Virus record (IMG/VR): IMGVR_UViG_3300042904_000139
Coordinates: 1-22,922 of that record
Strand: one strand, 5' to 3'
From: a virus
DNA length: 22,922 nucleotides
In this document: positions 2,096 to 16,577 of the stretch, in pieces
How the letters are laid out: each line of letters starts with the position of its first letter
Numbering within the stretch: position 1 is the stretch's first letter
The notes under the pieces: generated by a model
The model's input: the letters and a program-made list of their open reading frames with translations, nothing else
What the model was told of the DNA's origin: nothing
Database searches by the model: none
Made by a program: the position numbers and the translations under genes

Positions 2096-2111
2096 AAGGT
2101 AACACCTGTAG
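2096..2111 (+). promoter_or_regulatory. Phage RNA polymerase promoter, copy 1 (before RNA polymerase gene)
   Basis: The 16-base core AAGGTAACACCTGTAG, identical at four places in the window, ends 22 bases before the RNA polymerase ATG. By analogy with T7 and SP6 promoters (CTATAG), transcription would start at the final G (2111). This copy and copy 2 share a longer left flank (GGGCA) and a downstream ACAAACC. Its position implies that the polymerase transcribes its own gene. Confidence 0.8.
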
Positions 2112-2133
2112 CGTGCACAAACCAGGAGGGGAC

Positions 2134-4569
2134 ATGAGCACCATCTATGACCGGCAGGTTGAGTTAGAGCAGGAAATGCAGGGCCTGGGGGCCAAGCGTT
2201 TCTTCGAGGAAGTGACCAGGGCAGTGCAGGATGGGGAGGAATCCAGCACAGTCTATGGGCAACAGCTTGCGAAGAACACGGTCCTTCCGTTGGCGGAGGC
2301 CATCGAGCAATACCTTGAGCAGACCAAGGAAAACCAAGCTGCCCATGGCCGGAGAACCCCAATAGCCTGTAAGTACCTGCAACAGATTGATCCGAAGGTG
2401 GCCGCGTTCATCACGGTCAAGACGGTGATCGATTGCATTACCGTTCGGCGCACCCTGCAGAAGACAGCTATTGCGATAGCCTCGGGCATCGAGGACGAAG
2501 TACGGTTCCGCCTATTCGAGGGACAGAACAAAGCCCTGTGGGGGAAGGTGACGCGAGACCTCGACAAGCGTAGCAAGAATCAGAAGCACAAGCGCACCGT
2601 CCTGATTCACTCCATGAACAAGGCTGCAGCGAAGGATGTCAACCTTGAGTGGAAGGAGTGGGGACAGCAGGACAAGTTCCACCTGGGGACTCGCTTGCTC
2701 GACCTCCTCGAAGCACACACGGATATGCTGAGGGTGATCACGCTCGAAGAGGGGAAGCGCACGTCATCAACGGTGGTCGAAGCAACGGAGACCACGATGC
2801 AGTGGATCGAGGAGAAGAACAGCCGGTGCTCTCTGTTGTCGCCGGTGTTCTTGCCGACAATCATTCCGCCGAAACCGTGGACGAATCCATACGAAGGCGG
2901 ATACCACACGCGAGCGATTAGACCGCTGCGTTTGGTCAAGACTCGCAACCAAAATTACTTGGAGGAATTACATCATCGCGTTGACGAAATGCCTGCGGTC
3001 TACCAGGCCGTCAATGCGGTGCAAGCAACAGCGTGGAAGGTGAATGAGCCGGTGCTCGTGGTCATGCAGCAGGTGTGGGATGAAGCCCTCGACGTGGCAG
3101 CGGTGCCATGCCGTCAGGATACTCCGCTCCCTCCCAAGCCGCATGATATCGAGACCAACAAGGAGGCACGCACCGAATGGAAAAGAGCGGCGAGCAAAGT
3201 GCACGAGGCGAACACGAAGCTCCGGTCGAAGCGGTTGCAGATGGCAAAGATTCTGTACATGGCGGAGAAGTTCGTTGGCGAAAAGGCTATCTACTTCCCA
3301 CATCAACTGGACTTCAGAGGCAGGCTGTACGCCGTGCCGTCATTCCTCAATCCGCAGGGCTGCGACATGGCGAAATCGTTACTGCAATTCGCGGAGGGCA
3401 AGTCTATCGGTTCAAGTGGATTGAAGTGGATTAAGATTCACGCCGCAAATTGCTTCGGTGAAGACAAATGCTCGCTCGACGGTCGCGTGAAGTGGGCCGA
3501 CGAGAACATGAAGAAGATCGTGGCATGCTCCATCGACCCGCTCTCTGAGCAGTGGTGGACGGAAGCCGACAAGCCGTGGCAGTTCCTGGCCGCGTGCTTC
3601 GAACTGCATGCCGTCATTCTCAACCCAGACCATGTGAGCCACCTGCCTGTCAGTGTGGACGGGAGTTGCAATGGACTTCAGAATTTCAGCGCCATGCTCA
3701 GAGACGAAGTTGGCGGACGTGCGGTTAATCTGCTGCCGTCCGAGCTACCAGCCGACATATATGCTCGGGTTGCGGAAGTTACGAAAGCGAAAGTACAGGC
3801 TGATGCAGATAACGGTGACGCAGTTGCTATTGCGTGGCTGTACTTTGGGTTCGATAGGAAGGCGACCAAGCGTCCGGTCATGACGTTGCCGTATGGCGCG
3901 ACTCAGTACAGTGCGCGTCAGTACGTCATGGACTACATCACTGAGCGTGGTCATCATCCGTTCGGTGAGGATGCGTTTCCCGCTGCAGTCTACCTCGCTC
4001 GCCACATTTGGTCGAGCATCGGAGAGGTTGTTGTCGCAGCACGCAATGCGATGGACTGGTTGCAGAAGACCGCGAGCATCGCTGCGAGCGAAGGCTTGCC
4101 GGTCAACTGGCGCACGCCGGTAGGGTTTCCTGTGCTTCAATCGTATCCTGAGATGAGCATGCGCCGTGTGAAGACGAAGATCGGTGACACCATTCTGCTG
4201 TACGCACTGCAGAACGAGACCGATCAGATCGACAAGCGGAGGCAGTCGTCTGGAATTTCTCCGAACTTCGTGCACTCGATGGACGCATGCGCGTTGATGA
4301 TGAGCGTGCGCCGTGCGCTGAGTTGCGGAGTGACTAACTTCGGAATGGTGCACGATAGCTACGGCACGTTGGCTGCGGATATGGACACCATGGCCACATG
4401 CCTGCGCGAGGCGTTCGTCGAACTGTACGAGACGGACGTACTCGAAGAGTTCCGCAACAGTATCCTCGCCGGTCTCAATGCGAAGAATCAGAAGGAGGTT
4501 CCGCCGTGTCCACCAAAGGGCAACTTGGATTTATCGGCGGTGAAACAAGCAGTGTATTTCTTTGCCTAG
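2134..4569 (+). CDS. Single-subunit DNA-dependent RNA polymerase (T7 gp1-like)
   Basis: An 811-residue polymerase (T7: 883) that transcribes the phage genes from its own promoters. Visible landmarks are the Y-F-P-H-x-x-D-F-R-G-R segment (387-397), motif A V-D-G-S-C-N-G-L-Q (catalytic Asp509), the conserved R-D-E-V-G-G-R-A-V-N-L-L-P-S stretch, motif B K-R-P-V-M-T-L-P-Y-G (Lys579, Tyr587) and motif C V-H-D-S-Y-G-T (catalytic Asp741). It ends in Y-F-F-A, like the aromatic C-terminal foot of T7 polymerase. The promoter specificity loop should lie about 672-705. I chose ATG 2134 because it follows AGGAGGGG and lies after the phage promoter. An upstream in-frame ATG at 2026 would put the promoter inside the gene. 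It is flanked by phage promoters on both sides. Confidence 0.98.
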   Translation: MSTIYDRQVELEQEMQGLGAKRFFEEVTRAVQDGEESSTVYGQQLAKNTVLPLAEAIEQYLEQTKENQAAHGRRTPIACKYLQQIDPKVAAFITVKTVIDCITVRRTLQKTAIAIASGIEDEVRFRLFEGQNKALWGKVTRDLDKRSKNQKHKRTVLIHSMNKAAAKDVNLEWKEWGQQDKFHLGTRLLDLLEAHTDMLRVITLEEGKRTSSTVVEATETTMQWIEEKNSRCSLLSPVFLPTIIPPKPWTNPYEGGYHTRAIRPLRLVKTRNQNYLEELHHRVDEMPAVYQAVNAVQATAWKVNEPVLVVMQQVWDEALDVAAVPCRQDTPLPPKPHDIETNKEARTEWKRAASKVHEANTKLRSKRLQMAKILYMAEKFVGEKAIYFPHQLDFRGRLYAVPSFLNPQGCDMAKSLLQFAEGKSIGSSGLKWIKIHAANCFGEDKCSLDGRVKWADENMKKIVACSIDPLSEQWWTEADKPWQFLAACFELHAVILNPDHVSHLPVSVDGSCNGLQNFSAMLRDEVGGRAVNLLPSELPADIYARVAEVTKAKVQADADNGDAVAIAWLYFGFDRKATKRPVMTLPYGATQYSARQYVMDYITERGHHPFGEDAFPAAVYLARHIWSSIGEVVVAARNAMDWLQKTASIAASEGLPVNWRTPVGFPVLQSYPEMSMRRVKTKIGDTILLYALQNETDQIDKRRQSSGISPNFVHSMDACALMMSVRRALSCGVTNFGMVHDSYGTLAADMDTMATCLREAFVELYETDVLEEFRNSILAGLNAKNQKEVPPCPPKGNLDLSAVKQAVYFFA

Positions 4570-4609
4570 ATGCTTCCATGAATGGGATGATCCTATGCCT
4601 GGACGGGCA

Positions 4610-4625
4610 AAGGTAACACCTGTAG
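4610..4625 (+). promoter_or_regulatory. Phage RNA polymerase promoter, copy 2 (early small-gene cassette)
   Basis: Exact copy of the 16-base core in the 103-base gap after the RNA polymerase gene. The predicted start G is 4625, 48 bases before the first small gene. It would drive the cassette running to 7987. Confidence 0.8.
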
Positions 4626-4672
4626 ATCAGACAAACCGTGGCTCACTAACTAACAACCAGGAGGGACAGATC

Positions 4673-4747
4673 ATGACGGACAACACGAAGCAAATCGTTC
4701 TGAAATTGCAGGCCGCGAAACGGGCACAGCAGAAGGAGGGTAAATGA
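4673..4747 (+). CDS. Very small protein of unknown function (24 aa)
   Basis: ATG 4673 follows CAGGAGGG with good spacing and directly follows promoter copy 2. The peptide is short, basic and probably helical (it ends A-K-R-A-Q-Q-K-E-G-K). Its stop overlaps the next start as ATGA, so it may also act as a leader that couples translation to the next gene. I do not recognise it. Confidence 0.5.
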   Translation: MTDNTKQIVLKLQAAKRAQQKEGK

Positions 4748-4938
4748 GCGAGGCCAGTGACCGGCTCAACTACAACCTAGTCAAGACGCACCTTCCTCAG
4801 CAGTACGAAAGGATCGTGGCATTCTGCTCGACCTGCAATCCAGCCGGTATGGAAGTGCGTGAACGGGCGAAGATCGAAAGGTTCGTGATGGAGCAAGTGG
4901 CAGCAACCCTATTTCGATTCAAGGAGGACTTTAGCTGA
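4744..4938 (+). CDS. Hypothetical early protein (64 aa)
   Basis: ATG 4744 follows AAGGAGGG and overlaps the previous stop by 4 bases. The protein is probably helical, with C28-S-T-C31, which alone is not enough for a zinc site. I do not recognise it. Its place at the head of the first phage-promoter operon is that of host-takeover genes in T7, but no function can be read from the sequence. Confidence 0.7.
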   Translation: MSEASDRLNYNLVKTHLPQQYERIVAFCSTCNPAGMEVRERAKIERFVMEQVAATLFRFKEDFS

Positions 4939-5198
4939 TGGCAAGAGTTGATCGGACAATCCGTCGCATTCAAGAGAAGAAGACCATGAAGAACCGCATC
5001 AAGAATCTCCGCCAAGCTGCACAAGTGGCGTTCAAGGCGGGGAAGGAAGCGGTCCTCTTCGCAGCACATGGCCTGTCATACGGGGAGGGATATGAAGTCG
5101 TTGCTGACAGTGTGGGTAGTGGCAGTACTGACACTCCTGATGTTGTGGTCGTGGACTCTAACGAGAAACCATCCGTCCCACTCATCATACCAGCCTAA
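4938..5198 (+). CDS. Hypothetical early protein (86 aa)
   Basis: ATG 4938 overlaps the previous stop by one base (TGATG) and is preceded by AAGGAGG. The first 30 residues are strongly basic (R-R-I-Q-E-K-K, K-N-R-I-K-N-L-R) and probably helical; the rest is neutral to acidic. The last 107 bases overlap the next gene in another frame. No family is recognised. The basic N-terminus could bind nucleic acid, which is only a guess. Confidence 0.6.
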   Translation: MARVDRTIRRIQEKKTMKNRIKNLRQAAQVAFKAGKEAVLFAAHGLSYGEGYEVVADSVGSGSTDTPDVVVVDSNEKPSVPLIIPA

Positions 5199-5442
5199 GT
5201 TTCACGCCAATCAGTGCTTCAACCATAACGGAATTCGTGAGCCGTGGGAGACCAATGGTCCCGACGGCATCATCGTTATGAAGGGCTACGAATCTTACCT
5301 CGTCATGTTCCGGTCGGAGGCGGAACGGCGAAGTCTCGGTGAGAAGTACGGCTCACCATTCTCGATTGAGTGGTTCGACGAATCACACTACGAAGTCAAA
5401 TGTCCTGACGAATGGATCAATCACACAAGGAGGAAGTCATGA
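5092..5442 (+). CDS. Membrane-anchored hypothetical protein (116 aa)
   Basis: ATG 5092 follows GGGGAGGG. Residues 3-23 form one hydrophobic segment (L-L-T-V-W-V-V-A-V-L-T-L-L), with the remaining 90 residues probably on the outer side of the inner membrane. That domain has two cysteines (C42 and one near the end) that could form a disulfide. It overlaps the previous gene by 107 bases in a different frame, and the next gene by 4 bases. The nested arrangement recalls spanin pairs, but the upstream partner has neither a lipobox nor a membrane segment, so I do not call it a spanin. Confidence 0.65.
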   Translation: MKSLLTVWVVAVLTLLMLWSWTLTRNHPSHSSYQPKFHANQCFNHNGIREPWETNGPDGIIVMKGYESYLVMFRSEAERRSLGEKYGSPFSIEWFDESHYEVKCPDEWINHTRRKS

Positions 5443-5675
5443 AGGCAGTTGTTGAACATGAAAAGGTTGTCGCTCCCGTTGCGAAAGTCGTGATCGAACT
5501 TACTCCCGAAGAGGCGCGGCTGTTGAAGTACATCCTCAACTACCGCAACCGCGTGTCCATGGAAATCTACCGTGCGACCGGCGACAACGATCTTGCGCGG
5601 CGGATTCTCGACTTCACGTTCGGTCTGTGGCGTTCGCTGCATGACCAGGGTGTCCATGCCAAAGATCAACTGTAA
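5439..5675 (+). CDS. Hypothetical early protein (78 aa)
   Basis: ATG 5439 follows AAGGAGGAAG and overlaps the upstream stop as ATGA. The protein opens with an alanine/valine-rich stretch. It then has a likely helical core beginning at I-E-L-T-P-E-E-A-R-L-L and ending near L-W-R-S-L-H. It is compact, soluble and uncharacterised. It shares the early operon with other small proteins of unknown role. Confidence 0.7.
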   Translation: MKAVVEHEKVVAPVAKVVIELTPEEARLLKYILNYRNRVSMEIYRATGDNDLARRILDFTFGLWRSLHDQGVHAKDQL

Positions 5676-5790
5676 CGACGATGCCAGCCTGGATCAACCG
5701 GAGGAAGTCGAGCACTGCTTCATCTGCAAAGAAGCCCTCGACGAAGTTGCGGGGTGCTCGTGCACGAAAGGTGAAACGGACGGAGAGTAA
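5656..5790 (+). CDS. Tiny zinc-knuckle-like protein A (44 aa)
   Basis: ATG 5656 lies inside the end of the previous gene, with a modest AGGG 5 bases upstream. The sequence has E-V-E-H-C-F-I-C followed nine residues later by G-C-S-C (C21, C24, C34, C36), which suits a single four-Cys zinc site. The same pattern recurs in the next small frame (E-F-E-I-C-L-A-C ... F-C-L-C). The two may therefore be duplicated genes or two halves of one protein separated by a frameshift. Function is unknown. Confidence 0.55.
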   Translation: MPKINCNDDASLDQPEEVEHCFICKEALDEVAGCSCTKGETDGE

Positions 5791-5875
5791 GTTCGTCGAG
5801 TTTGAAATCTGCCTAGCCTGCGATGAGCAGATAGACGATTTCGGTTTTTGTTTGTGCGACCGGAAAAAATTTTAA
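5771..5875 (+). CDS. Tiny zinc-knuckle-like protein B (34 aa, start uncertain)
   Basis: Read in the +1 frame relative to protein A. The coding signal is the C-x2-C-x11-C-x-C pattern in E-I-C-L-A-C ... F-C-L-C, nearly the same spacing as protein A. The start is weak: GTG 5771 is the nearest codon and has only a poor ribosome binding site; ATG 5681 in the same frame would add an unlikely Ser/Lys/Arg-rich leader lying wholly within protein A. A +1 frameshift near 5765-5790 joining A and B into one two-knuckle protein is an alternative. Confidence 0.4.
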   Translation: MKRTESKFVEFEICLACDEQIDDFGFCLCDRKKF

Positions 5876-5904
5876 CCACAACAATCCATTGGAGGAACTA
5901 TCTC

Positions 5905-6561
5905 ATGAGTGAACAGAAGCGTGAACCCTTAACGTCCCCGAAGGGTGTGGCCAAGTGGATCACCATTAACCAGCCCGACACGAAGTTCAAAGACGAGGGC
6001 GAGTACCGCGTGTCGCTGTTGCTGAAGGGCAAGGATGCCGACACGTTGAAGGCGAAGATCGACGAAGCGATTCGTCTGTCCATCGTCGAGGCCAAAGCGA
6101 ACAAGGACAACGCGAAGCACAAGACCATCAAGGCTTCACAGTATGTCCCGTACGCTGCCGACACGGACAAGGAAGGGAACGAGACCGGCTTCACCGCGTT
6201 CAAGTTCACGGCGAAAGCCAGCGGTGTCAGCAAGAAGACCAAGAAGGAGTGGACCTTCAAGCCTCGCGTGTTCGATGCCAAGGGTGTCCCCATGAACATC
6301 GACAAGACGCAGGTGTGGGGTGGTTCCACCGTCAAGGTTGCCTTCGAGATCGTGCCCTACGGCGTTCGTCAGTACTCACCGACGATGGGCGTGGGCGTGA
6401 GCTTGAAGTTCTCGGCGGTGCAAATCCTCGACCTCAAGACCGGAACCGGCAAAGACGCGAAGGCGTTCGGGTTCGGTGAGGAAGAGGGCTACAGCCAGGG
6501 TGCCTTCACTGACGCGGAAGCAGAGTCCGCACAGGCAGGCGACGAGAGTGAGGAATTTTAA
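5905..6561 (+). CDS. Single-stranded DNA-binding protein (T7 gp2.5-like)
   Basis: A 218-residue protein (T7 gp2.5: 232) with the OB-fold layout of this family. It starts with L-T-S-P-K-G-V-A-K-W-I-T and has a long lysine-rich centre. The acidic tail ends D-E-S-E-E-F. The terminal aromatic residue after acidic residues is the hallmark that gp2.5 uses to contact the DNA polymerase and helicase. It coats ssDNA and coordinates the replisome. ATG 5905 follows TTGGAGGA. An in-frame ATG at 5848 lies inside the previous reading frame and lacks conserved sequence. Its end overlaps the endonuclease gene. Confidence 0.93.
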   Translation: MSEQKREPLTSPKGVAKWITINQPDTKFKDEGEYRVSLLLKGKDADTLKAKIDEAIRLSIVEAKANKDNAKHKTIKASQYVPYAADTDKEGNETGFTAFKFTAKASGVSKKTKKEWTFKPRVFDAKGVPMNIDKTQVWGGSTVKVAFEIVPYGVRQYSPTMGVGVSLKFSAVQILDLKTGTGKDAKAFGFGEEEGYSQGAFTDAEAESAQAGDESEEF

Positions 6562-6955
6562 TCGCTGGCGAAACTTCAACCGGCAACGTCAACAAAGCGG
6601 GAAGCGATCTGGATTGGAGGTCCAGGTCGCTGCCCAACTCGACAAGCTCGGTGTGAAGTACGCCTATGAACCGAAGGACGGCAAGATTGATTACGTCAAG
6701 CACGAGGAAAAGAAATATGCACCGGACTTCGTGCTGGACAGATTCATTGTCGAGACCAAGGGGGAGTTCACATCCAAGGATCGGAAGAAACATCTTCTGA
6801 TCAAGGAACAACACCCCGACCTCGACATTCGCTTCGTCTTCTCAAATCCAAATCAACGCATCGGCAAGGGGAGTAACACGACGTACGCGATGTGGTGCGA
6901 CAAGCACGGCTTCATGTACGCGAAGGGTTTCATCCCTGTGGAGTGGCTCACATGA
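6548..6955 (+). CDS. Endonuclease I, Holliday-junction resolvase (T7 gp3-like)
   Basis: A 135-residue protein from GTG 6548, near the T7 size of 149. It cuts branched DNA and contributes to host DNA breakdown. The catalytic set is complete: Glu24 (S-G-L-E), Asp60 (P-D-F), Glu69 and Lys71 (V-E-T-K-G), followed by the family-typical D-R-K-K-H-L-L-I-K-E-Q-H-P segment. The start is not certain. GTG 6548 gives the length and N-terminus expected of the family and overlaps SSB by 14 bases; another GTG at 6476 would add 24 basic residues with no counterpart in T7. The stop overlaps the next gene as ATGA. Confidence 0.93.
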   Translation: MRNFNRWRNFNRQRQQSGKRSGLEVQVAAQLDKLGVKYAYEPKDGKIDYVKHEEKKYAPDFVLDRFIVETKGEFTSKDRKKHLLIKEQHPDLDIRFVFSNPNQRIGKGSNTTYAMWCDKHGFMYAKGFIPVEWLT

Positions 6956-7164
6956 TTTCAATGAACAGATGGTATCGCGTTCGGGAGCGGTCGCGAACAT
7001 ACGGATTTCCTAGCGGACCAAAGCAGACGTTTGTCGGCGTCGTCCGTGTCCGTGTCAGCCCATCGCACACTCACTACCTGGAGACCAGGAGCGGCAACAA
7101 GTACATCGTCCGCAACACCTGGGTTGTCTGCCAGATCAAGGGTGGGGACTGGATTGATCCGTGA
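6952..7164 (+). CDS. Hypothetical small basic protein (70 aa)
   Basis: ATG 6952 overlaps the endonuclease stop and its own stop overlaps the lysozyme GTG, so it is locked in a coupled cassette. The sequence alternates hydrophobic and polar residues (F-V-G-V-V-R-V-R-V, Y-I-V-R-N-T-W-V-V), suggesting a small beta-barrel. It is strongly basic. No homologue is recognised. In T7 short genes also sit between gp3 and gp3.5. Confidence 0.65.
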   Translation: MISMNRWYRVRERSRTYGFPSGPKQTFVGVVRVRVSPSHTHYLETRSGNKYIVRNTWVVCQIKGGDWIDP

Positions 7165-7601
7165 GAAAGGCAACCAACTACATCGTCGTCCACTGCTCCG
7201 CTACGAAGGCGAGCGCAACGAAGGTGGACGCAAAAGAGATCGACCGATGGCACCGGCAAAGAGGGTGGCTGATGATCGGCTACCACTTTGTGATCACACG
7301 TGATGCCACGTTGCAGAAAGGACGGGAACTGAATGCGGCAGGGGCGCACGTCGCGGGGCATAACCACGAGTCTATCGGGGTTTGCCTTGTTGGGGGAATC
7401 GCCAACGACGGATCACCGGAAGACAACTTCACGAAGGAACAGAAGGATGTCCTTCTCGCAATTCTTCGTGAACTGCGTGCGGTCTATCCGAAGGCTCGCA
7501 TCATCGGACACTACGAACTAGAGCCGAAGAAAGCGTGCCCGTCATTCAACGTACAGCAGTGGCTCAAAGACAAACCCGAACTGAAGGAGGTGGTGCATTG
7601 A
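7161..7601 (+). CDS. N-acetylmuramoyl-L-alanine amidase (T7 lysozyme, gp3.5-like)
   Basis: A 146-residue zinc amidase that cleaves the amide bond between muramic acid and the peptide stem. In T7 it also inhibits the RNA polymerase. Zinc ligands are His11, His117 and Cys126, with Tyr41 (G-Y-H-F) and Lys124 as catalytic partners, at the same relative spacing as T7 H17, Y46, H122, K128 and C130. The N-terminus is about six residues shorter than in T7, where that region contacts the RNA polymerase, so regulation may differ. The start is GTG 7161, overlapping the previous stop as GTGA. The next gene begins TTGA on its stop. Confidence 0.95.
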   Translation: MRKATNYIVVHCSATKASATKVDAKEIDRWHRQRGWLMIGYHFVITRDATLQKGRELNAAGAHVAGHNHESIGVCLVGGIANDGSPEDNFTKEQKDVLLAILRELRAVYPKARIIGHYELEPKKACPSFNVQQWLKDKPELKEVVH

Positions 7602-7987
7602 GACTCTGGCAACTGAAACTGAAGTACGCTGCGAAGAAAGAGAGCCTTCGCAACTGGCTGTTCATCAAGTTTGGTGGACAGGAGGAACTGCGTCGGCGGG
7701 AATGCGCCATGCGGAACTACCTCGCAGACCAACACGCGCAAGCCGTGCGGAGAGAACGCGACCAACTCGCTGCGTTGATCCGCCCGTTGATTCGCGTGAG
7801 TGCCTCGCACAATTTCAACACGTTTGATCTATCGTACACCGTCTCGATCAGCGACTACCTATTGTACAACAGTCGCAATGATCGGAAGGCAATGATCGGA
7901 TACCTCGCAGAGCAGATCGCTCACGAGTTGATGAACGTGCAGCCGGTCAGCCATCAAGGTGTGTCACCGACGTATCGGACACACTAA
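7598..7987 (+). CDS. Hypothetical protein (129 aa), TTG start
   Basis: TTG 7598 follows GAAGGAGG and overlaps the lysozyme stop (TTGA). No ATG gives a sensible reading. The first half is charged and likely helical or coiled (E-E-L-R-R-R-E-C-A-M-R, A-V-R-R-E-R-D-Q-L-A-A-L). The second half is more globular and ends in a Pro/Ser/His tail. Its stop codon TAA overlaps promoter copy 3 (AAGG begins at 7986). No family is recognised. It is the last gene before the terminator at 8010. Confidence 0.7.
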   Translation: MRLWQLKLKYAAKKESLRNWLFIKFGGQEELRRRECAMRNYLADQHAQAVRRERDQLAALIRPLIRVSASHNFNTFDLSYTVSISDYLLYNSRNDRKAMIGYLAEQIAHELMNVQPVSHQGVSPTYRTH

Positions 7988-8001
7988 GGTAACACCTGTA
8001 G
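7986..8001 (+). promoter_or_regulatory. Phage RNA polymerase promoter, copy 3 (before DNA metabolism genes)
   Basis: Exact copy of the 16-base core, with a different left flank (CACACT). The predicted start G is 8001. The hairpin of an intrinsic terminator begins only 9 bases later, so initiation here either reads through or makes an RNA of about 45 bases. Confidence 0.78.
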
Positions 8002-8009
8002 CCAAACGA

Positions 8010-8045
8010 ACCCGAGGGCAATCACGCTCTCGGGTTTTTCTTTTT
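8010..8045 (+). terminator. Intrinsic terminator at end of early cassette
   Basis: ACCCGAG (8010-8016) pairs with CTCGGGT (8029-8035); the helix extends inward by a G-T and two G-C pairs around loop AATCAC. TTTTTCTTTTTC follows. This may act like the T7 early terminator, stopping host RNA polymerase while the phage enzyme starting at copy 3 reads on. Confidence 0.88.
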
Positions 8046-8076
8046 CTAAACCAATCCATCAACGGAGGGAATTTCC

Positions 8077-8355
8077 ATGAACGCAGAAGCCACGGTTCCT
8101 ACACCCAGCATGTTCAACGTCCGCACTGCCGCGAGCCTCATCGCGAGAATCCCGACCACGAATCAATGCCACCCAATCCTCAACCATCTAATCATGAAAG
8201 GCTCGATCAGTCCGTTGGAAGCTGACTCACTGTATCGAGTGAAGCGGCTGACCTCCCGCATTCATGACCTCAAGAAATTGGGCGTGAACATCACGGGAGA
8301 ATTCCGGCGTGACCTGACGGGGAAACGCTATGTCCGCTACTACATCGCAGGCTGA
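8077..8355 (+). CDS. Small winged-helix DNA-binding protein (92 aa)
   Basis: ATG 8077 follows ACGGAGGG. The segment around residues 31-75 (P-I-L-N-H-L-I-M-K-G-S-I-S-P-L-E-A ... R-L-T-S-R-I-H-D-L-K-K-L-G-V-N-I) matches a short helix-turn-helix pattern common in phage proteins: a low-complexity spacer, an eA-type helix, then a recognition helix reading R-x-x-R-I-x-x-L-K-K-x-G. It may regulate transcription at this module boundary or assist replication. It is the first gene after promoter copy 3 and overlaps the primase-helicase start by 26 bases. Confidence 0.75.
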   Translation: MNAEATVPTPSMFNVRTAASLIARIPTTNQCHPILNHLIMKGSISPLEADSLYRVKRLTSRIHDLKKLGVNITGEFRRDLTGKRYVRYYIAG

Positions 8356-9979: not shown

Positions 9980-10334
9980 CACCGGAAAGAAAGCCCTGCT
10001 GCACCTTTGCTACATGACGGTGCGGCAGGTCGCTCCGAAGCACGGCAGCTTTGATTCCCTCACGCAGGCAACAGTGGCGGAGGGGCTGGCTGACAAGCTC
10101 GAACAATTCATCAAGGCACAACCCAACAACAACGTAATGGAGTTCGAAGTCCAAGACGCAGATACGTTCGATTACCTCTGCGACATTCTGGACACACTCC
10201 AAAAGACGCTCCCGTTCATGAACCGCTTCAACGTGGTTCTGCACATCGAGCGTCTCGTAAGGGAGGAACCGAAGGATGCAGCCGCAGCTATTAACCGTGA
10301 TCGAGAAGGAGACTCTGAAGACCTGGACTTCTGA
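9963..10334 (+). CDS. Hypothetical acidic protein (123 aa)
   Basis: GTG 9963 follows GAAGGAGAAGGAA and overlaps the end of the primase-helicase gene by 17 bases. The protein is mainly helical. It contains a small acidic block (M-E-F-E-V-Q-D-A-D-T-F-D-Y-L) and ends E-D-L-D-F, an acidic tail closed by Phe. That ending resembles the replisome-docking tails of T7 gp2.5 and gp4. Its neighbours are helicase and ligase, so an accessory replication role is possible but not shown. Its end overlaps the ligase start by 59 bases. Confidence 0.65.
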   Translation: MAPLSDTGKKALLHLCYMTVRQVAPKHGSFDSLTQATVAEGLADKLEQFIKAQPNNNVMEFEVQDADTFDYLCDILDTLQKTLPFMNRFNVVLHIERLVREEPKDAAAAINRDREGDSEDLDF

Positions 10335-11136
10335 CGAATGGAAGAACTGGCAGATCGAGGCGAAGCGTGATGGCTTCCGGCTTCTGATCGTAGGTGGTGT
10401 CCCGCAGTCCCGCTCCGGTAAACCCCTTCACAACATAGATCACATCCTCAAAGAACTTGGGAACTACTCCAGCGTGGTGTTCGACGGCGAACTTCACGGC
10501 GACACCTGGGAGCAGACCTCTCACGTTGCTCGCGCCTCCAAGTCGGAGCGCGAAGAGAAGCTGACGTACACCATCTTCGATGCTCTGTCCGTCTTCGAGT
10601 GGGAGAACCAACAGTGTGAGCGGCAACTATGGGAACGCCAAGCCGTGTTGCGCCACCACATCAAGCAGACCGAACACATCAGGATCGCCTATCCCTACCA
10701 GTGTCGGAGCTACCAGGAGTTCGAGGGTATGCACGACAGCCATCTAAAGACCGGCTGCGACGGCACGGTGCTGAAGCGCAAGGACTCCCTCTACGAGTTC
10801 AAGCGCACGAAGACCTGGCTGAAGGTGAAGCCTGCGCTCGACTGCGATGCTCTCGTGGTCGACATGGTGGAAGGCACCGGCAAGTACAAGGGGATGCTCG
10901 GTGCGCTCGTCGTACTGCCTGCGCTGAATGGCGTGGACGGCAAGCCTGTCGCTGTGACCACCAAGGTCAGCGGCATGGACGACGATTGCCGACGCGCATG
11001 GTGGGAGCAGAGACACTTCTCCAACGGTGGACCTCTGAACATCATGGGCAAGGTCATCGAAGTGACGTACCGCAAGGTGAACCCAAGCGGTCGTCTCGTC
11101 GAGCCGCGCTTCGTTCGAATCAGGACCGATCTATGA
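10276..11136 (+). CDS. ATP-dependent DNA ligase
   Basis: A 286-residue ligase (T7 gp1.3: 359) that seals nicks between Okazaki fragments. Nucleotidyltransferase motif I is E-A-K-R-D-G-F-R with the adenylated Lys30; motif III is F-D-G-E-L; D-G-T-V-L-K-R and W-L-K-V-K are motifs IV and V; the OB domain ends with R-F-V-R-I-R-T-D. The reduced length leaves the catalytic and OB domains but little N-terminal extension. ATG 10276 follows AAGGGAGGAA. In T7 the ligase is an early gene far from the polymerase; here it lies inside the replication cluster. The stop overlaps the next start as ATGA. Confidence 0.94.
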   Translation: MQPQLLTVIEKETLKTWTSDEWKNWQIEAKRDGFRLLIVGGVPQSRSGKPLHNIDHILKELGNYSSVVFDGELHGDTWEQTSHVARASKSEREEKLTYTIFDALSVFEWENQQCERQLWERQAVLRHHIKQTEHIRIAYPYQCRSYQEFEGMHDSHLKTGCDGTVLKRKDSLYEFKRTKTWLKVKPALDCDALVVDMVEGTGKYKGMLGALVVLPALNGVDGKPVAVTTKVSGMDDDCRRAWWEQRHFSNGGPLNIMGKVIEVTYRKVNPSGRLVEPRFVRIRTDL

Positions 11137-11294
11137 ACCAACAACAACTCGATTGGTACAACGAGGGCGTCATCATGCTGATGGCCCTCATGAACGGTCG
11201 CGGCATCGTTGCTCGGGGAAGTGCCGAAAGGAAAGTCTTCGAGCAATGGCGCATGCGCGGCCATCTGATCGACCAACTAACGGAGGACAAATAG
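11133..11294 (+). CDS. Hypothetical small protein (53 aa)
   Basis: ATG 11133 overlaps the ligase stop by 4 bases, so translation is probably coupled; no strong ribosome binding site is seen. The peptide is helical and soluble (D-W-Y-N-E-G-V-I-M-L-M-A-L-M ... E-R-K-V-F-E-Q-W-R). No family is recognised. Its end provides the CGGAGG binding site for the next gene. Confidence 0.55.
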   Translation: MNQQQLDWYNEGVIMLMALMNGRGIVARGSAERKVFEQWRMRGHLIDQLTEDK

Positions 11295-11296
11295 TC

Positions 11297-11455
11297 ATGG
11301 GCTTTCTGGAAGTCATCACAGTCGTGTTCATCGTTGCAAAGCTGATTGGCGTCATCAACTGGTCGTGGTGGCTGGTGCTGCTGCCGACCCTGATCGAGGG
11401 CGTCATCGTGATTCTGATTGCGTTCTTTCTCCTCGCTACTCGTCCCCGTCGCTAG
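11297..11455 (+). CDS. Small two-helix membrane protein (52 aa)
   Basis: ATG 11297 follows ACGGAGGACA. Residues 5-19 and 24-47 are hydrophobic and separated by N-W-S-W-W, with a basic end (R-P-R-R). The sequence style, a short helix then I-N-W-S-W-W-L-V-L-L-P and a second helix, is common in small phage membrane proteins sometimes labelled Fragile-X-F-like. Function is unknown. Two close segments would be compatible with a holin-like or membrane-associated role, but nothing proves it. Confidence 0.7.
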   Translation: MGFLEVITVVFIVAKLIGVINWSWWLVLLPTLIEGVIVILIAFFLLATRPRR

Positions 11456-11492
11456 TTCCAAACCCTAACAACGCAACTGAAAGGAGGGCCGC

Positions 11493-11921
11493 ATGCTCGG
11501 CATGTGTCTCGCTCCGCTCATTCTCATGGGGCAGATGTTCACCATCGAGACCCCGACGCACAAATCCAAAGAGAACCACGATAGCCAGATCGTCGAAATG
11601 CAAACGTGCGAGACGGGGCTAGGGATGCATGCCAAGGCATCGGCCAATGGCTTCTACGGTCTCGGCTTCCAGTACGGAGTGAAGCTGTTCGAAAGCGGGA
11701 AGTGGAGTGCGGTCCTTCAACCGAAGGCTGGCATGTCCTACGTCGACCATCCGGTCTACGAACTTCCGCAGCGCACGCAGTTCGAAGTCGGTGGGCAACT
11801 CCTTCTCGGCTACGGCAACGCGAGGATGGGAGTTGAGTACTGGCACTTGTCCAACGCAGGCATGACCAAGCCGAACATCGGGCAGGACTTCCTGGTCCTC
11901 TCGATGGGATGGAGGTTCTGA
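11493..11921 (+). CDS. PagL-like outer-membrane beta-barrel (lipid A deacylase family?)
   Basis: A 142-residue protein with a short hydrophobic N-terminus (residues 1-17) and alternating aromatic/glycine strands typical of a beta-barrel, ending with W-R-F as outer-membrane proteins do. Near the C-terminus lies Y-W-H-L-S-N-A-G (His118, Ser120), the hallmark of the PagL lipid A 3-O-deacylase family, which uses a His-Ser-Glu triad. The acidic residue expected 14 positions after the His is Asp132 rather than Glu. Such an enzyme could alter lipid A in infected or lysogenic cells and change host surface properties. ATG 11493 follows AAAGGAGGG. It may be shorter than bacterial PagL, and activity is unproven. 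Confidence 0.7.
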   Translation: MLGMCLAPLILMGQMFTIETPTHKSKENHDSQIVEMQTCETGLGMHAKASANGFYGLGFQYGVKLFESGKWSAVLQPKAGMSYVDHPVYELPQRTQFEVGGQLLLGYGNARMGVEYWHLSNAGMTKPNIGQDFLVLSMGWRF

Positions 11922-12130
11922 TGCTCGAACCATTCGCAAGCTACTTCCTCGTGATCATCATTCACTTCTCTGTCGGAGTGAAAGAGGACTTGAGGATTTT
12001 CGATCCGAAACAAAAACCGATTGAGTCTCTAGCCGCATGTGAGAAGGCGGCAGAGAGAGCAGTCAACTGGCTACACCAGGACTTCGCCAACGTGGAAGCC
12101 CTGTGCGTGCCGGTGAACAAAGTTAGTTAG
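11921..12130 (+). CDS. Hypothetical protein with N-terminal membrane/signal segment (69 aa)
   Basis: ATG 11921 overlaps the previous stop by one base and follows GGAGG at 11911. Residues about 6-20 (A-S-Y-F-L-V-I-I-I-H-F) are hydrophobic; the rest is charged and helical with two cysteines. A secreted or inner-membrane-anchored small protein is likely. Coupling with the PagL-like gene suggests both act at the cell envelope, which is inference. No family is recognised. Confidence 0.65.
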   Translation: MLEPFASYFLVIIIHFSVGVKEDLRIFDPKQKPIESLAACEKAAERAVNWLHQDFANVEALCVPVNKVS

Positions 12131-12138
12131 GAGACCAC

Positions 12139-14037
12139 ATGCGAGAGATCATTTTCGACATCGAGACGAACGCACTTCTCGAAGACCTAACCAAGGTCCA
12201 CTGCATCGCGTTATACGATTCAGACTGGCCTGCGTTGGGTGTGCAGTCCTTCAACGGACCAGCCATAGAGAATGCTCTCGCCATGTTGGGGCAGGCTGAT
12301 GTTCTTGTTGGTCAGAACATTCTGAAGTTCGACCTCAAGGCACTCAAGAAAGTGTATCCGCACTTCACCTATCGAGGAAAAGTGCGGGACACTCTTGTCT
12401 GTTCCCGCTTGGTGTGGCCTGAGATCATCACGCAGGACTACGCCCTCGTTCGCAACAACGCCAACTTCCCGACAACCCTCATGGGGAAACACACGCTGAG
12501 AGCCTGGGGCTATCGCCTCGGAATTCTCAAAGGTGAATTCGGGAGCGGCGAAAGTGACGAGGCGGTGTGGGACACGTGGTCGCAGGCTATGGAGGATTAC
12601 TGCAAGCAGGACGTGGCTGTGACGCAACGCCTGTGGAAGCTAATCCAATCCAAGGGCTACTCCGAAGAATCCATTCAACTCGAACACGACTTCGCTGCGA
12701 TCATCCACGAACAGGAGTTGGAGGGCTTCCCGTTCGATGAACAAGCAGCAACGGAATTCTATATCGAACTCTGCGCCAAGCGTGCGGAGATCGACAAGCA
12801 GATCATGCCGTACTTCCCACCGTGGAAGACGTACTCGACGTTCACGCCGAAGGTCAACAACAAGAAGCGTGGCTACGTCAAGGGCGTGCCGTTCACGAAA
12901 GTGAAAGAGCACACCTTCAATCCTGCCTCTGACAAACAGATCATCGACCGGCTCAAGGAACAGCGGAAGTGGGAGCCGGTGGACTTCACTGAGAACGGCA
13001 ACCCGAAGATCGATGGCGACACGCTGCGTCTGCTAGGGAAGCAATGGCCGGAGTGCAATCTTCTCGCAGAGCGTGCGGACGTTGACAAGATCATCGGCAT
13101 GTTAGCCGAAGGCGACAACGCCTGGTTGAAGCTCTGTAAGAAAGGCCGCATTCACGGTGCGGTCATTACGAACGGAGCCGTGACAGGACGGTGCGCTCAC
13201 TTCAAACCGAACCTCGGGCAAATCCCGAAGGAAGGTGAAATGGGTTCGCGCTGCCGGAAGCTGTTCACGTCGATACCAGGGTGGAGTCTGCTCGGGTGGG
13301 ACGCATCCGGTCTCGAACTCCGCATGCTCGGAAGCTACATGGGCAAGTACGACGGCGGAGCGTACGTGTTGATCGTCACGCAAGGTGACGTGCACACCGA
13401 GAATCAAAAGGCTGCGGGTCTGCCGACGCGCACCAACGCGAAGACCTTCATCTACGCCTTCCTCTACGGAGCCGGTGGTCACAAGATCGGCCTCATTGTG
13501 GGAGTGAAGGACGAAGAGATTCCTGAGTTGAAGAAACTCGGTCTCTGGAACCAAGCGAAGTCCACGCTCGAACGACGAAACATGTCCACGTCGGATATCA
13601 ACGTCGCGCTCGAAGTGAAGGGACGCATGCTGAAGTCGAAGTTCATCAAAGGACTTCCGGCTCTTGGCATGTTGAAGGAAGCGGTCGAGATCAAAGCAAA
13701 GACGCAGGGATTTCTGAAGGGCATCGACGGGCGACTGATCCCCACACGATCACCGCACTCGGCGCTCAACACCCTGCTGCAATCCGCCGGTGCCATCGTG
13801 GTGAAAAAGGCCACGATCATTTGGCACGAGAAGCTGAAGCAACATGGCCTAGCGGACAAGGTTCGTCAGGTCGTTCACGTTCACGACGAAGTGCAGGCCC
13901 TCGTGAAAGAGGGTCATGAACAGGAGGTCGGACAACTTGCAAGAGAAGCCATCAAAGAAGCAGGCGTCTACTTCAAGTTGCGATGCCCTCTCGACGGTGA
14001 GTTCAAAGTCGGACGCAACTGGAAAGAAACTCACTAA
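12139..14037 (+). CDS. DNA polymerase, family A (T7 gp5-like)
   Basis: A 632-residue replicative polymerase. The 3'-5' exonuclease has D7-I-E9, K-F-D65 and Y154-C-K-Q-D158. The polymerase has motif A D388-A-S-G-L-E-L-R, motif B R431-T-N-A-K-T-F-I-Y439 with Lys435, and motif C V-H-D583-E. It is about 70 residues shorter than T7 gp5 (704). The segment between G-F-P-F-D (about 196) and the F-N-P-A-S block (about 260), where T7 carries its thioredoxin-binding loop region, is much reduced. Processivity may thus not depend on thioredoxin. ATG 12139 follows TTAGGAGA. Confidence 0.97.
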   Translation: MREIIFDIETNALLEDLTKVHCIALYDSDWPALGVQSFNGPAIENALAMLGQADVLVGQNILKFDLKALKKVYPHFTYRGKVRDTLVCSRLVWPEIITQDYALVRNNANFPTTLMGKHTLRAWGYRLGILKGEFGSGESDEAVWDTWSQAMEDYCKQDVAVTQRLWKLIQSKGYSEESIQLEHDFAAIIHEQELEGFPFDEQAATEFYIELCAKRAEIDKQIMPYFPPWKTYSTFTPKVNNKKRGYVKGVPFTKVKEHTFNPASDKQIIDRLKEQRKWEPVDFTENGNPKIDGDTLRLLGKQWPECNLLAERADVDKIIGMLAEGDNAWLKLCKKGRIHGAVITNGAVTGRCAHFKPNLGQIPKEGEMGSRCRKLFTSIPGWSLLGWDASGLELRMLGSYMGKYDGGAYVLIVTQGDVHTENQKAAGLPTRTNAKTFIYAFLYGAGGHKIGLIVGVKDEEIPELKKLGLWNQAKSTLERRNMSTSDINVALEVKGRMLKSKFIKGLPALGMLKEAVEIKAKTQGFLKGIDGRLIPTRSPHSALNTLLQSAGAIVVKKATIIWHEKLKQHGLADKVRQVVHVHDEVQALVKEGHEQEVGQLAREAIKEAGVYFKLRCPLDGEFKVGRNWKETH

Positions 14038-14422
14038 GCGGTGCTCTCGTTGTCGAACGGAGAAAGACTTGCACGAATTCGGAAAGCACAAGACCAATCC
14101 GCAGGGGAGGCAATCCTACTGCAGGGTCTGTCTGGACGAATACCTTGTGATCAAGCGGTATGGAATGAGGCCGGAAGAATACAACCGGCTGCTCGATGAG
14201 CAAGACCATGCCTGTGCGATCTGCAGGGAACAATGCATCACGAAGGCGCGACTCGCTGTTGACCACGATCACAAGACGGGTCGCGTCCGTGCACTTCTCT
14301 GTGACCGATGTAACAAGGGTCTCGGCTTATTCCGAGACGACTCTTGGTTGTTGGTTGCGGCAGCGGAGTACTTGAAAAAATTTTCACCTGATTCATCCAC
14401 TGATGGAAAGGAAGCGTCATGA
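13997..14422 (+). CDS. HNH endonuclease of the endonuclease VII type
   Basis: About 141 residues from GTG 13997. Two CxxC pairs (C16/C19, C42/C45) form an N-terminal zinc site. Then come C73-A-I-C76, the catalytic D89-H-D-H92, C102-D-R-C105 and N106, the zinc and His-Asn pattern of T4 endonuclease VII-like HNH proteins. Such proteins in phages are either resolvases or freestanding homing endonucleases. The start is uncertain: GTG 13997 overlaps the polymerase by 41 bases without a clear binding site, while ATG 13916 has AGAGGG upstream but would overlap by 122 bases and add a non-conserved leader. The position directly after the polymerase is typical of homing elements. Confidence 0.85.
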   Translation: MSSKSDATGKKLTKRCSRCRTEKDLHEFGKHKTNPQGRQSYCRVCLDEYLVIKRYGMRPEEYNRLLDEQDHACAICREQCITKARLAVDHDHKTGRVRALLCDRCNKGLGLFRDDSWLLVAAAEYLKKFSPDSSTDGKEAS

Positions 14423-14658
14423 CAAAGGAAGAACTTGCATCGTTCGAGAAAGAAGGTTTCGGGCGTTTCAACTTGAGACAGTCGGCAGAGGTTCATCCCG
14501 CGAAGCGCACGCGCACAGGGCCGCGTCGTGTGATCACGAACAGACCAACGCGAGAACTCGTGTCGGTCGGATATGACCGCACCAAGTACGTGCCGCGCAT
14601 TGTGAAGGATGCGATGGGCAACGATGTTCGGGTGTTGGTGAAGAAAGGAAACTCATGA
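14419..14658 (+). CDS. Hypothetical basic protein (79 aa)
   Basis: ATG 14419 follows GGAAAGGAAG and overlaps the HNH stop as ATGA. The middle is rich in Arg, Lys and Thr (K-R-T-R-T-G-P-R-R), followed by a probably folded C-terminus ending V-R-V-L-V-K-K-G-N-S. A nucleic-acid-binding role is conceivable from charge alone. No family is recognised. Its stop overlaps the next start. Confidence 0.65.
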   Translation: MTKEELASFEKEGFGRFNLRQSAEVHPAKRTRTGPRRVITNRPTRELVSVGYDRTKYVPRIVKDAMGNDVRVLVKKGNS

Positions 14659-14894
14659 AGTACGAAGACTTCAGAGGAACAGAAATAAAAGTCGGCAGCG
14701 GCGTCGTGTACGCGCAGCGCAAAGGATCGAGCCTGTGGATGGAAGAAGGAACAGTCGTCGAACTGACCACGCAGGAAGGTTGGCACGGTGGGCCTTATCC
14801 AGCGATCAAGGTTCGAAAGATCAAGGAAGACGGTTCGATGAGCGAGAGAATCAGCAAGCTCTCGCGGCTGGACCGTGTGACGGTGGTTGCTTGA
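14655..14894 (+). CDS. Hypothetical protein (79 aa), SH3-like beta pattern
   Basis: ATG 14655 follows AAGAAAGGAAAC and overlaps the previous stop. The pattern of short strands and turns (G-S-G-V-V-Y-A, E-G-T-V-V-E-L, A-I-K-V-R-K-I, D-R-V-T-V-V) suggests a small SH3-like barrel. It is coupled through TTGA to the exonuclease, so a partner or accessory role is possible. The family is not recognised. Confidence 0.65.
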   Translation: MKYEDFRGTEIKVGSGVVYAQRKGSSLWMEEGTVVELTTQEGWHGGPYPAIKVRKIKEDGSMSERISKLSRLDRVTVVA

Positions 14895-15679
14895 AGAGAG
14901 TCCTACTCATAGACGGAGACATTCTCGTCTACCAAGTTGCGTCCGCAGCGGAGAAGCCCTTCTATTGGGGCGACGATCTGTGGACGCTGCACTCGGATAT
15001 GAACGAGGCGCTCCCGACCTTTGTCGAGCGGATCGATCAGATCAAGGAAGAACTCAAGGCAGACCACATTTGCTTTGCGCTCACGACAACCGGCGTGAAC
15101 TTCCGCAAGCTGGTCTATCCGAACTACAAAGCCAACCGCAAAGCCGTTCGCAAGCCGCTCGTGTGGAAGCCTCTGCGGGAATACCTGCACGCCAACTACG
15201 AGACGTTCGAACGGGACGGTCTGGAGGGGGACGACTGTCTCGGCATCCTCTGCACGAGCAAGTTCTCATTCACGAAGGAGTACGGCGACGACGTTGAGAA
15301 GATCATTGTCTCCATCGACAAAGACTTCAAAACAATTCCAGGCAAGTACTACCACATGCAGAAGCGCGAGTTGGTCGAGGTCAGTGAACGGGAGGCCGAC
15401 TACTGGTTCTACTTCCAGACGCTGACTGGTGACACCACTGACGGCTATCCAGGCTGTCCAGGTATCGGGCCGAAGAACGCTGAGAGAATTCTCAAGCCGA
15501 TCTTCGACGCCGGTGTGAACGAGCGTGCTTCTGCATGGGCTGCAGTGATCGAAGCGTACAAGGCGAAGGGACTAGGGGAGGGTGTCGCGCTGCAGATGGC
15601 GCGGTGCGCTCGCATCCTTCGTCACTCGGACTACGACTTCAAGAACAAGAAACCAATTCTCTGGGAGGCACCACAATGA
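14891..15679 (+). CDS. 5'-3' exonuclease (T7 gp6-like), TTG start
   Basis: A 262-residue FEN-type nuclease (T7 gp6: 300) that removes RNA primers and degrades host DNA. Landmarks are L-L-I-D-G-D, Y-P-N-Y-K-A-N-R-K-A-V (helical arch), L-E-G-D-D, S-I-D-K-D-F-K-T-I-P and G-D-T-T-D-G-Y-P-G-C-P-G-I-G-P-K with the helix-hairpin-helix, covering the metal-binding acidic residues. TTG 14891 overlaps the previous stop as TTGA and gives the N-terminus directly before the conserved core. The upstream in-frame ATG would add a non-conserved leader inside the previous gene. The binding site is weak, so translational coupling is likely. Confidence 0.95.
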   Translation: MKRVLLIDGDILVYQVASAAEKPFYWGDDLWTLHSDMNEALPTFVERIDQIKEELKADHICFALTTTGVNFRKLVYPNYKANRKAVRKPLVWKPLREYLHANYETFERDGLEGDDCLGILCTSKFSFTKEYGDDVEKIIVSIDKDFKTIPGKYYHMQKRELVEVSEREADYWFYFQTLTGDTTDGYPGCPGIGPKNAERILKPIFDAGVNERASAWAAVIEAYKAKGLGEGVALQMARCARILRHSDYDFKNKKPILWEAPQ

Positions 15680-15795
15680 ATAACTGGCATACGGTCGCAG
15701 TCGTGTTCTTCGTGCTGCTCTTTGTAGCATCGTGGTTCATTGCTGCGGCCATCATGCTTGTCGACTTCGTGGTCGAAAGGATGAAGAACAAATGA
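15676..15795 (+). CDS. Single-span membrane peptide (39 aa)
   Basis: ATG 15676 follows CTGGGAGG and overlaps the exonuclease stop; its own stop overlaps the next start. Residues 6-33 are almost wholly hydrophobic, followed by V-E-R-M-K-N-K, so the C-terminus should be cytoplasmic by the positive-inside rule. Small membrane peptides are common in T7-like phages; no function can be assigned. Confidence 0.6.
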   Translation: MNNWHTVAVVFFVLLFVASWFIAAAIMLVDFVVERMKNK

Positions 15796-16031
15796 AGATC
15801 ATCTACAAGCCATACATCGTGAAGGAAATGCATGCTGCCTACGACAAGGCGTGTAACCTAAATCGTGTGATCAACAAGTTTGTTCTCACGAAGGAAGAGT
15901 TCGCACAGTTCAGCATCGAGACGGAGAACATGAAACCGCAGATGCGCTTCAACGAGACTCGCTACGATCTGCGAACGGACGAATACAGCACTGTCTGGAA
16001 ATTCCTCGGTGCAGAAGTGGAGGTTGAATAA
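15792..16031 (+). CDS. Hypothetical protein (79 aa)
   Basis: ATG 15792 overlaps the previous stop as ATGA. No strong binding site is seen beyond GGATGAAG, so coupling is likely. The protein is a mixed helical, soluble domain with an acidic end (G-A-E-V-E-V-E). The stop overlaps the next start by one base (TAATG). No family is recognised. Confidence 0.65.
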   Translation: MKIIYKPYIVKEMHAAYDKACNLNRVINKFVLTKEEFAQFSIETENMKPQMRFNETRYDLRTDEYSTVWKFLGAEVEVE

Positions 16032-16471
16032 TGGGGTACGGAGGAAGTGACAGCTATCAACGCGAGTGCGAACGAAAAGAGGAAGACGCTCGCCGTAGAG
16101 GGCCTGTGAGCCATTCACCAGCCCCCGACGCACCGGTCGGAGAACTCGTGCAGGGTGGCCGCAAGGACGACGGTGAGAAAGTCCGCACGGACCTCTACTC
16201 GATTCCCGCCTACCTCGGCACCTGCCGTGTCCTCACGTTCGGCGCGAAGAAATACGCCGCGTGGAATTGGAGCAAGGGCATCCTGTACATGCGGATATTC
16301 GGAGCGATCCTCCGCCACCTGTTCGCCTGGGTGACGGGCGAGGACAACGATCCAGAGACCGGCCTACCGCACCTGGATCACGCTGCCTGCGAACTGATGT
16401 TCCTGCAGCATTTCACGAAGGACGGGAAGTACCGGCAGTACGACGACCGGCCATACGGCAAGGTAGCCTAA
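16031..16471 (+). CDS. dATP/dGTP pyrophosphohydrolase-like protein (DUF5664 / MazZ-like)
   Basis: A 146-residue protein. After a charged, Pro-containing leader (1-40) comes the family core: D-D-G-E-K-V-R-T-D-L (46-55), L-T-F-G-A-K-K-Y-A-A-W-N-W (68-80), G-A-I-L-R-H-L-F-A-W (91-100) and G-E-D-N-D-P-E-T-G-L-P-H-L-D-H-A-A-C-E-L (103-122). This all-alpha MazG-related fold hydrolyses dATP or dGTP to the monophosphate. In some phages it works with PurZ to replace adenine by diaminopurine; no PurZ is in this window, so a nucleotide-pool role is the safer reading. It is the last gene before the terminator at 16484. Confidence 0.85.
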   Translation: MGYGGSDSYQRECERKEEDARRRGPVSHSPAPDAPVGELVQGGRKDDGEKVRTDLYSIPAYLGTCRVLTFGAKKYAAWNWSKGILYMRIFGAILRHLFAWVTGEDNDPETGLPHLDHAACELMFLQHFTKDGKYRQYDDRPYGKVA

Positions 16472-16483
16472 TCTGACGGGAAC

Positions 16484-16533
16484 AAAATAGAGGGACAACA
16501 GTGGGGCAACCCATTGTCGTTCCTCTATTTTTT
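16484..16533 (+). terminator. Intrinsic terminator at end of DNA metabolism module
   Basis: AAAATAGAGG (16484-16493) pairs perfectly with CCTCTATTTT (16522-16531), with inner GACAA/TTGTC and TGG/CCA helices and TT after the stem. The A-tract/T-tract ends make it potentially active in both directions. Promoter copy 4 begins 29 bases later. Confidence 0.85.
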
Positions 16534-16561
16534 CGTGCTCCGCAAGCAAGTACTGTGCCCA

Positions 16562-16577
16562 AAGGTAACACCTGTAG
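16562..16577 (+). promoter_or_regulatory. Phage RNA polymerase promoter, copy 4 (late structural module)
   Basis: Exact copy of the 16-base core between the terminator and the first structural-module gene. The predicted start G is 16577, 34 bases before GTG 16611. It is the only recognisable phage promoter for the morphogenesis genes in the window, including the capsid gene 4.4 kb downstream. Confidence 0.8.

Follow-up and report, generated by a model that had tools for sequence, protein, structure and literature searches.

Four Identical Sites at Module Boundaries

The IMG/VR virus record IMGVR_UViG_3300042904_000139 carries four copies of the same 16-bp sequence, AAGGTAACACCTGTAG, and encodes a T7-type RNA polymerase, raising the question of whether these sequences are the promoters of that polymerase and, if so, whether their specificity is that of a known class. 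The window analyzed here is the entire record, 22,922 bases, and the motif search in the phage's own DNA was limited to that stretch. We found that the four 16-mers are very probably cognate promoters of the phage's own polymerase, as judged from their agreement with the positions of mapped promoters, from a recognition core shared with related phages, and from a covariation between promoter bases and polymerase residues that is fitted by K680 and L689 of the window polymerase. The predicted promoter specificity, GGTAA at -12 to -8, is new, as are the two polymerase residues that appear to recognize it; the kind of switch is well known.

When the whole window was scanned, AAGGTAACACCTGTAG gave exact matches at 2096-2111, 4610-4625, 7986-8001 and 16562-16577, all on the + strand. 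No further copy was detected on either strand of the 22,922 bases with up to three mismatches allowed, and the reversed control pattern had zero matches in the window. Shuffled sequences gave 0.07 matches on average, and 0/100 shuffles reached four. These results bear out the claim of the original prediction that four exact + strand copies are beyond chance, and the window did not show the wide occurrence inside genes that the same prediction had regarded as refuting it. Outside the record, AAGGTAACACCTGTAG was found as one copy each in ten IMG/VR stretches; since none of the ten encodes a T7-like polymerase, we take these lone matches as chance, and the polymerase-promoter pair can be called new as far as its sequence is concerned.

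The copies are intergenic or overlap a stop codon, and the gene positions confirmed that they lie at module boundaries, as had been proposed. Promoter 1 (2096-2111, +) sits between an intrinsic terminator (1989-2018, +) that follows tRNA-Leu and the polymerase ATG at 2134, and is thus placed as an autogenous promoter. Promoter 2 (4610-4625, +) lies 41 nucleotides past the polymerase stop. Promoter 3 (7986-8001, +) overlaps the TAA (7985-7987) of a small open reading frame (ORF) downstream of the amidase gene, and is directly followed by a second intrinsic terminator (8008-8037, +), which starts at +9 of the promoter and has a fold of -21.1 kcal/mol (z -5.7). Promoter 4 (16562-16577, +) stands between the dATP/dGTP diphosphohydrolase gene and the structural genes. 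The extended motif reads CAAAGG in three of the four copies and CTAAGG in the other. A repeated, conserved motif at module boundaries, oriented with transcription, fits a T7-type promoter, as do its recognition core, AGGTAACAC, which puts CAC at -7 to -5, and the A, a purine, at +1.

Correspondence with Mapped Promoters

The phage-specific promoters of Pseudomonas phage LUZ100 were mapped by ONT-cappable-seq (PMC10134795). They (OP329100, phi1-phi8) comprise one promoter before the polymerase gene and a tandem behind it, another past the amidase gene with a terminator directly downstream, and others toward the structural genes (PMC10134795). By polymerase, LUZ100 is one of the closest isolates to the window (43-45% identity). 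We found that the four window sites occupy the same places as mapped promoters of LUZ100, namely phi1, phi2/phi3, phi4 and phi6 for promoters 1 to 4, including the post-amidase promoter with a terminator directly downstream, and that MarR and integrase genes lie upstream in both phages. LUZ100 differs in its motif, ATTACCACACAGGTATGGA, in having D748 with CC at -12/-11, as compared with K and GG in the window, and in carrying its tRNA-Leu before the integrase gene instead of after it.

The architecture is also that of T7, in which phi1.1A/B follow the polymerase gene, as promoter 2 does, and phi3.8 follows the amidase gene, as promoter 3 does; T7 also shares CAC at -7 to -5. In contrast, T7 has CGACT in place of GGTAA at -12 to -8, N748/Q758 in place of K/L in its polymerase, and no annotated promoter before its polymerase gene. 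Judging from these sequences, it is plausible that the pair is orthogonal to T7.

Comparison with Relatives and with SP6

To place the motif, polymerase relatives were drawn from IMG/VR, bacterial genomes and named phages, and repeated motifs were sought without a preset sequence. As a check, the motif finder was shown to recover the established promoters of T7 and SP6, and de novo motifs were found at matching places in over 25 relatives. The core AGGTnnCAC is common to the window, its nearest relatives L020 (TTAGGTTGCACTACTAAAGGG), L021 (TTAGGTTGCACTAGTGAACC), L026 (TTAGGTTGCACCTAAGAAT), L032, L033 (TTAGGTTCCACTAAAACGG) and the Roseobacter phage CRP-125, and SP6. When 109 polymerases were placed in a tree, that of the window formed a pair with that of L020 (support 0.93; 46-48% identity), far from SP6.

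CRP-125 (OR420743) has a record without promoter annotation, and its motif, AGGTTGCACCATAG, was found in this analysis. It shares AGGTnnCACC with the window (TTAGGTTGCACCATAGCAT being the stretch aligned with that of the window), and its sites lie before and after the polymerase gene, after the lysozyme gene and before the structural genes, its site at 16907 having the place of promoter 4. It differs in having TG at -9/-8 with Y at 758, as compared with AA and L in the window.

The description of the motif as SP6-like therefore held only in part. SP6 (TTAGGTGACACTATAGAAG, aligned with AAAGGTAACACCTGTAGC of the window) shares the AGGTnnCAC core and a basic residue at 748, but this core is present equally in CRP-125 and the five other relatives named above. 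Moreover, SP6 has GA at -9/-8 and TATA at -4 to -1, where the window has AA and CTGT; its polymerase is only 35% identical to that of the window; and it has no copy before its polymerase gene. Neither the GA and TATA bases nor an SP6-related polymerase, which mark the SP6 promoter class, was found in the window. The sites are real, ordinary in kind as cognate T7-type promoters, new in sequence, and SP6-like just in the core of a broad clade.

Covariation of the Specificity Hairpin with Promoter Bases

In T7 polymerase, N748 contacts -10/-11, R756 contacts -9 and Q758 contacts -8 (PMC5937735). By alignment to T7, the specificity hairpin of the window polymerase comprises residues 671-700 (4144-4233, +), with K680 and L689 equivalent to N748 and Q758, respectively. 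Promoter bases -13 to -5 were tabulated against loop residues for the window and 34 further polymerases, an earlier round having covered 28 including the window, and the statistics given here were computed with the window left out. G at -11 occurred in 21/21 cases with K or R at 748, as compared with 2/13 with other residues (p 3e-7), and G at -8 occurred in 9/9 cases with an aromatic residue at 758, as compared with 1/25 others (p 2e-7). Among 198 residue-position pairs, 758/-8 and 748/-11 ranked first and second, and both correspond to contacts published for T7. When the set was thinned to <50% identity (18 polymerases), which was the sole correction for ancestry, 758/-8 remained first and 748/-11 was third (p 7e-4 and 1.5e-3).

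The window promoters, having G at -11 and A at -8, agree with K680 and L689 under this code. Loci found later via primase mostly fitted as well, with G at -11 in L197, L163 and L187 (K) and without it in L126 (E), L192 (Q) and L196 (D); L191 (D) was the one that did not. The close relatives L037 (K748; GGTTGCAC) and L063 (E748; YCCTGCAC) have promoters differing mainly at -13 to -10, with GGT as opposed to YCC at -12 to -10 and TGCACAATTGGA common to both; on sequence grounds, this pair is a candidate natural specificity swap. L073 (R748, AGCCCACCAAGCGG) was left out because its register was not confidently placed, as were L023 and L102, in which palindrome-like repeats beside the polymerase gene allowed no register. 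The loop comparison with T7 and SP6 that had been suggested with the original prediction thus yields K/L in the window as compared with N748/Q758 in T7, and a basic residue at 748 in SP6. Together with the synteny with mapped promoters and the motif homology, this residue-base code strongly supports the original assignment of the sites to the phage polymerase.

The AGGT-AAC-ACCT element within the 16-mer had been described as an imperfect dyad; it is in fact perfect over 4 bp per side. A dimer of the MarR-like repressor could bind such a dyad, so that the repeats would be operators and not promoters, and both the MarR-like gene in the window and the MarR sites thought to lie near the polymerase promoter of LUZ100 accord with this. 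However, all four copies are oriented with transcription, the invariance extends 3' of the dyad (CTGTAG) where an operator would be symmetric, motifs stand at the same places in most relatives without a dyad, and the polymerase loop residues covary with motif bases. We therefore rejected the AGGT dyad as an operator, for its single orientation, asymmetric invariance and absence from most relatives, and we consider this explanation very unlikely. The dyad is treated as incidental because the promoters of most relatives lack it, and a dual promoter/operator role at promoter 1 is possible. Separately, palindrome-like repeats were observed on both polymerase-gene flanks in L023, near 135 and 2861 (TAGTGC-TT-GCACTA), and in L102, near 9155; these are perhaps MarR operators.

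Register, Start Site and Points of Misfit

When promoters were aligned on the core and bases were counted from the A of AGGT, the 14th was a purine in almost every promoter, and this base was taken as +1. The window has A at +1 and G at +2 in all four copies; A at +1 is also seen in T7 phi2.5, YIMV22061, L069, L030 and L033. The annotated promoter ends of LUZ100 fall at +1 to +3 of this register, which is therefore good to about two bases. The inserted base formerly invoked against SP6 is unneeded, and the starts, formerly put at 2111, 4625, 8001 and 16577, are predicted one base earlier, at A2110, A4624, A8000 and A16576, or possibly at the adjacent G. A start at this G would imply a spacer with one base more than is typical; TAG suits initiation at G, with which T7-type enzymes mostly begin, and the LUZ100 mapping cannot split A from G. 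Nevertheless, the core alignment lands +1 on A without a gap, as in the five other promoters above, and we regard a G start as the less probable choice, though one with an appreciable chance.

Several observations weigh against the sites being cognate promoters of this kind. Besides +1 being A instead of the usual G, the -17 to -14 bases (gcaA, actA, ccaA) are less AT-rich than in T7 or relatives (CAATT), AT being present at only the last three of the five positions -17 to -13 in most copies. Registers were hand-set, with CAC and the +1 purine as guides, and in a few cases this was done after the pattern was seen; L191 departs from the code in combining D748 with G at -11; and L at 758 with A at -8 recurs in just two other lineages, LUZ100 and L112. 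Finally, the record covers just part of the phage genome, which limits the known sites to four. By analogy with LUZ100 (phi8) and CRP-125 (36551), the whole phage probably has another copy after the terminase gene.

Proposed Action and Relation to Lysogeny

Under the cognate promoter reading, the specificity hairpin would read the major groove of AGGTAACAC (-13 to -5), K680 facing G at -11 and L689 facing A at -8, and the polymerase would melt the CTGT stretch and initiate at A2110 and the corresponding A of the other sites, or possibly at the G beside it. The first polymerase would presumably come from host polymerase reading through the terminator at 1989-2018, after which promoter 1 would close a positive loop in which the enzyme drives expression of its own gene. 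The replication genes would then be served by promoters 2 and 3, and the structural genes by promoter 4. In lysogeny, the MarR-like protein would keep promoter 1 off, as proposed for LUZ100; we infer both the start-up step and MarR repression by following the LUZ100 model.

The upstream region has the arrangement of a probable integration site. The tyrosine integrase gene (731-1765, +; PHROG 1, E 5e-46; Pfam PF00589) is followed by tRNA-Leu(taa) (1843-1929, +), a probable core of the phage attachment site (attP). This tRNA is flanked on one side by ATGTTGCGG repeats (1789-1841, +; three exact and one variant, at 1791-1841), probable integrase arm sites of the P arm, and on the other by copies of the repeat adjoining promoter 1 (2065-2091, -; P' arm), one of which is inverted (2078-2091). 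Since the flanking repeats look like integrase arm sites, attP is placed between integrase and polymerase. The AAGGTAACACCTGTAG copies could likewise be sites for another phage protein, as integrase arm sites or replication-origin repeats; they are an exact repeated sequence, and a promoter-then-terminator at site 3 could prime replication. The integrase arm-type repeats, however, differ from them in sequence, and the copies lie at transcription-module boundaries in positions matching mapped promoters, so that this possibility seems extremely remote, more so than an operator role.

The right-hand arm copy extends to 2091, no more than two bases from position -17 of promoter 1, so that integrase occupying this copy might influence transcription of the polymerase gene from that promoter. 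YIMV22061 and L027 likewise carry repeats near promoter 1. A tRNA-Leu between integrase and polymerase also occurs in L020, L027, L073, L125, L197 and YIMV22061. In six of nine relatives from bacterial genomes (L100/G001, L101/G002, L102/G003, L103/G004, L111/G007 and L117/G009), an integrase gene lies 34-42 kb downstream of the polymerase gene on the same strand, as compared with just upstream in free phages. In the case from Pseudomonas putida, a 55-bp tRNA-Leu piece is repeated exactly at both ends, the polymerase lying inward of one repeat and the integrase inward of the other. Given an attP between the two genes, integration should part promoter 1 and the polymerase gene from the MarR-like and integrase genes.

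An attP on the downstream side of the integrase gene is already known in T7-like cyanophages (PMC8776855); the consequence of this placement for polymerase control was not found stated in the open-access literature searched. We tentatively propose, while judging it somewhat likelier to fail than to stand, that the pair forms a separate orthogonal class (GGTAA, -12 to -8), read by a two-residue code across temperate T7-like phages, with an autogenous promoter in an integration-controlled switch. If this is true, integration at an attP between MarR-integrase and promoter 1 would cut the polymerase from lysogeny-operon read-through, and excision would restore it.

An upstream promoter copy, mostly 40-260 bp before the polymerase gene, was present in nearly all relatives that have both an integrase and a recognised motif, L020 being the sole one without it; this tally is biased, because many other loci were found through that copy. 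T7, SP6 and IME-DE1 showed no promoter copy before the polymerase gene and no integrase detected upstream of it (T7 covered from 2800 on), and no clear promoter was found in L125 (H748) or L035. These data suggest that self-driven transcription of the polymerase gene, described as peculiar in LUZ100, is a common feature of T7-like phages with an integrase; this has a bearing on their choice between lysis and lysogeny. The window adds a polymerase-promoter pair of a specificity not seen before, and the code (748 with -11, 758 with -8) could make promoter specificity predictable from nothing more than the sequence of a phage polymerase, which would be useful for metagenomic phages and for the choice of orthogonal expression systems.

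Gene Content and Further Observations

The genes point to a temperate T7-like phage, of the Autographiviridae of the LUZ100/CRP-125 kind, as the source: the window has its own RNA polymerase, an integrase, a MarR-like gene and the T7 gene order. It carries a MarR-like winged-helix gene, a putative lysogeny regulator (390-728, +; weak Pfam MarR_2 and HTH_27; placed as in LUZ100 and CRP-125), followed by the integrase gene, tRNA-Leu(taa), the terminator and the T7-type single-subunit RNA polymerase gene (2134-4569, +; 811 amino acids; PHROG 414, E 4e-280; Pfam RNA_pol, RPOL_N). Then come genes for single-stranded DNA-binding protein (SSB), endonuclease I, amidase, primase/helicase, ATP-dependent ligase and DNA polymerase, and last those for endonuclease VII, exonuclease, dATP/dGTP diphosphohydrolase, portal, capsid and tail protein. 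The RNA polymerase is complete, with the equivalents of T7 D537, K631, Y639 and D812 all present, and its fold is settled by its similarity to the solved T7 polymerase (E about 1e-156).

Megablast of the window against 50,697 phage records gave only short DNA polymerase matches, and single-protein searches with the polymerase, primase and portal gave no close relative. The primase relatives L124-L126 (61-63% identity) lack the motif, and in L125 and L126 the polymerase shares only 42-44% identity with that of the window; primase and polymerase therefore do not travel together.

A promoter followed within about 30 nucleotides by an intrinsic terminator, usually just past the amidase gene, recurs across diverged phages: window 7986-8037, L026 4008, L120 7557, L034 4910, L031 7088, L073 11044, L123 25803 and LUZ100 phi4/T6. 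The RNA made from such a pair would be very short, and the purpose might be to prime replication or to act as an insulator. In addition, a small ORF with a long proline run (16827-17081) lies directly 5' of the portal gene.

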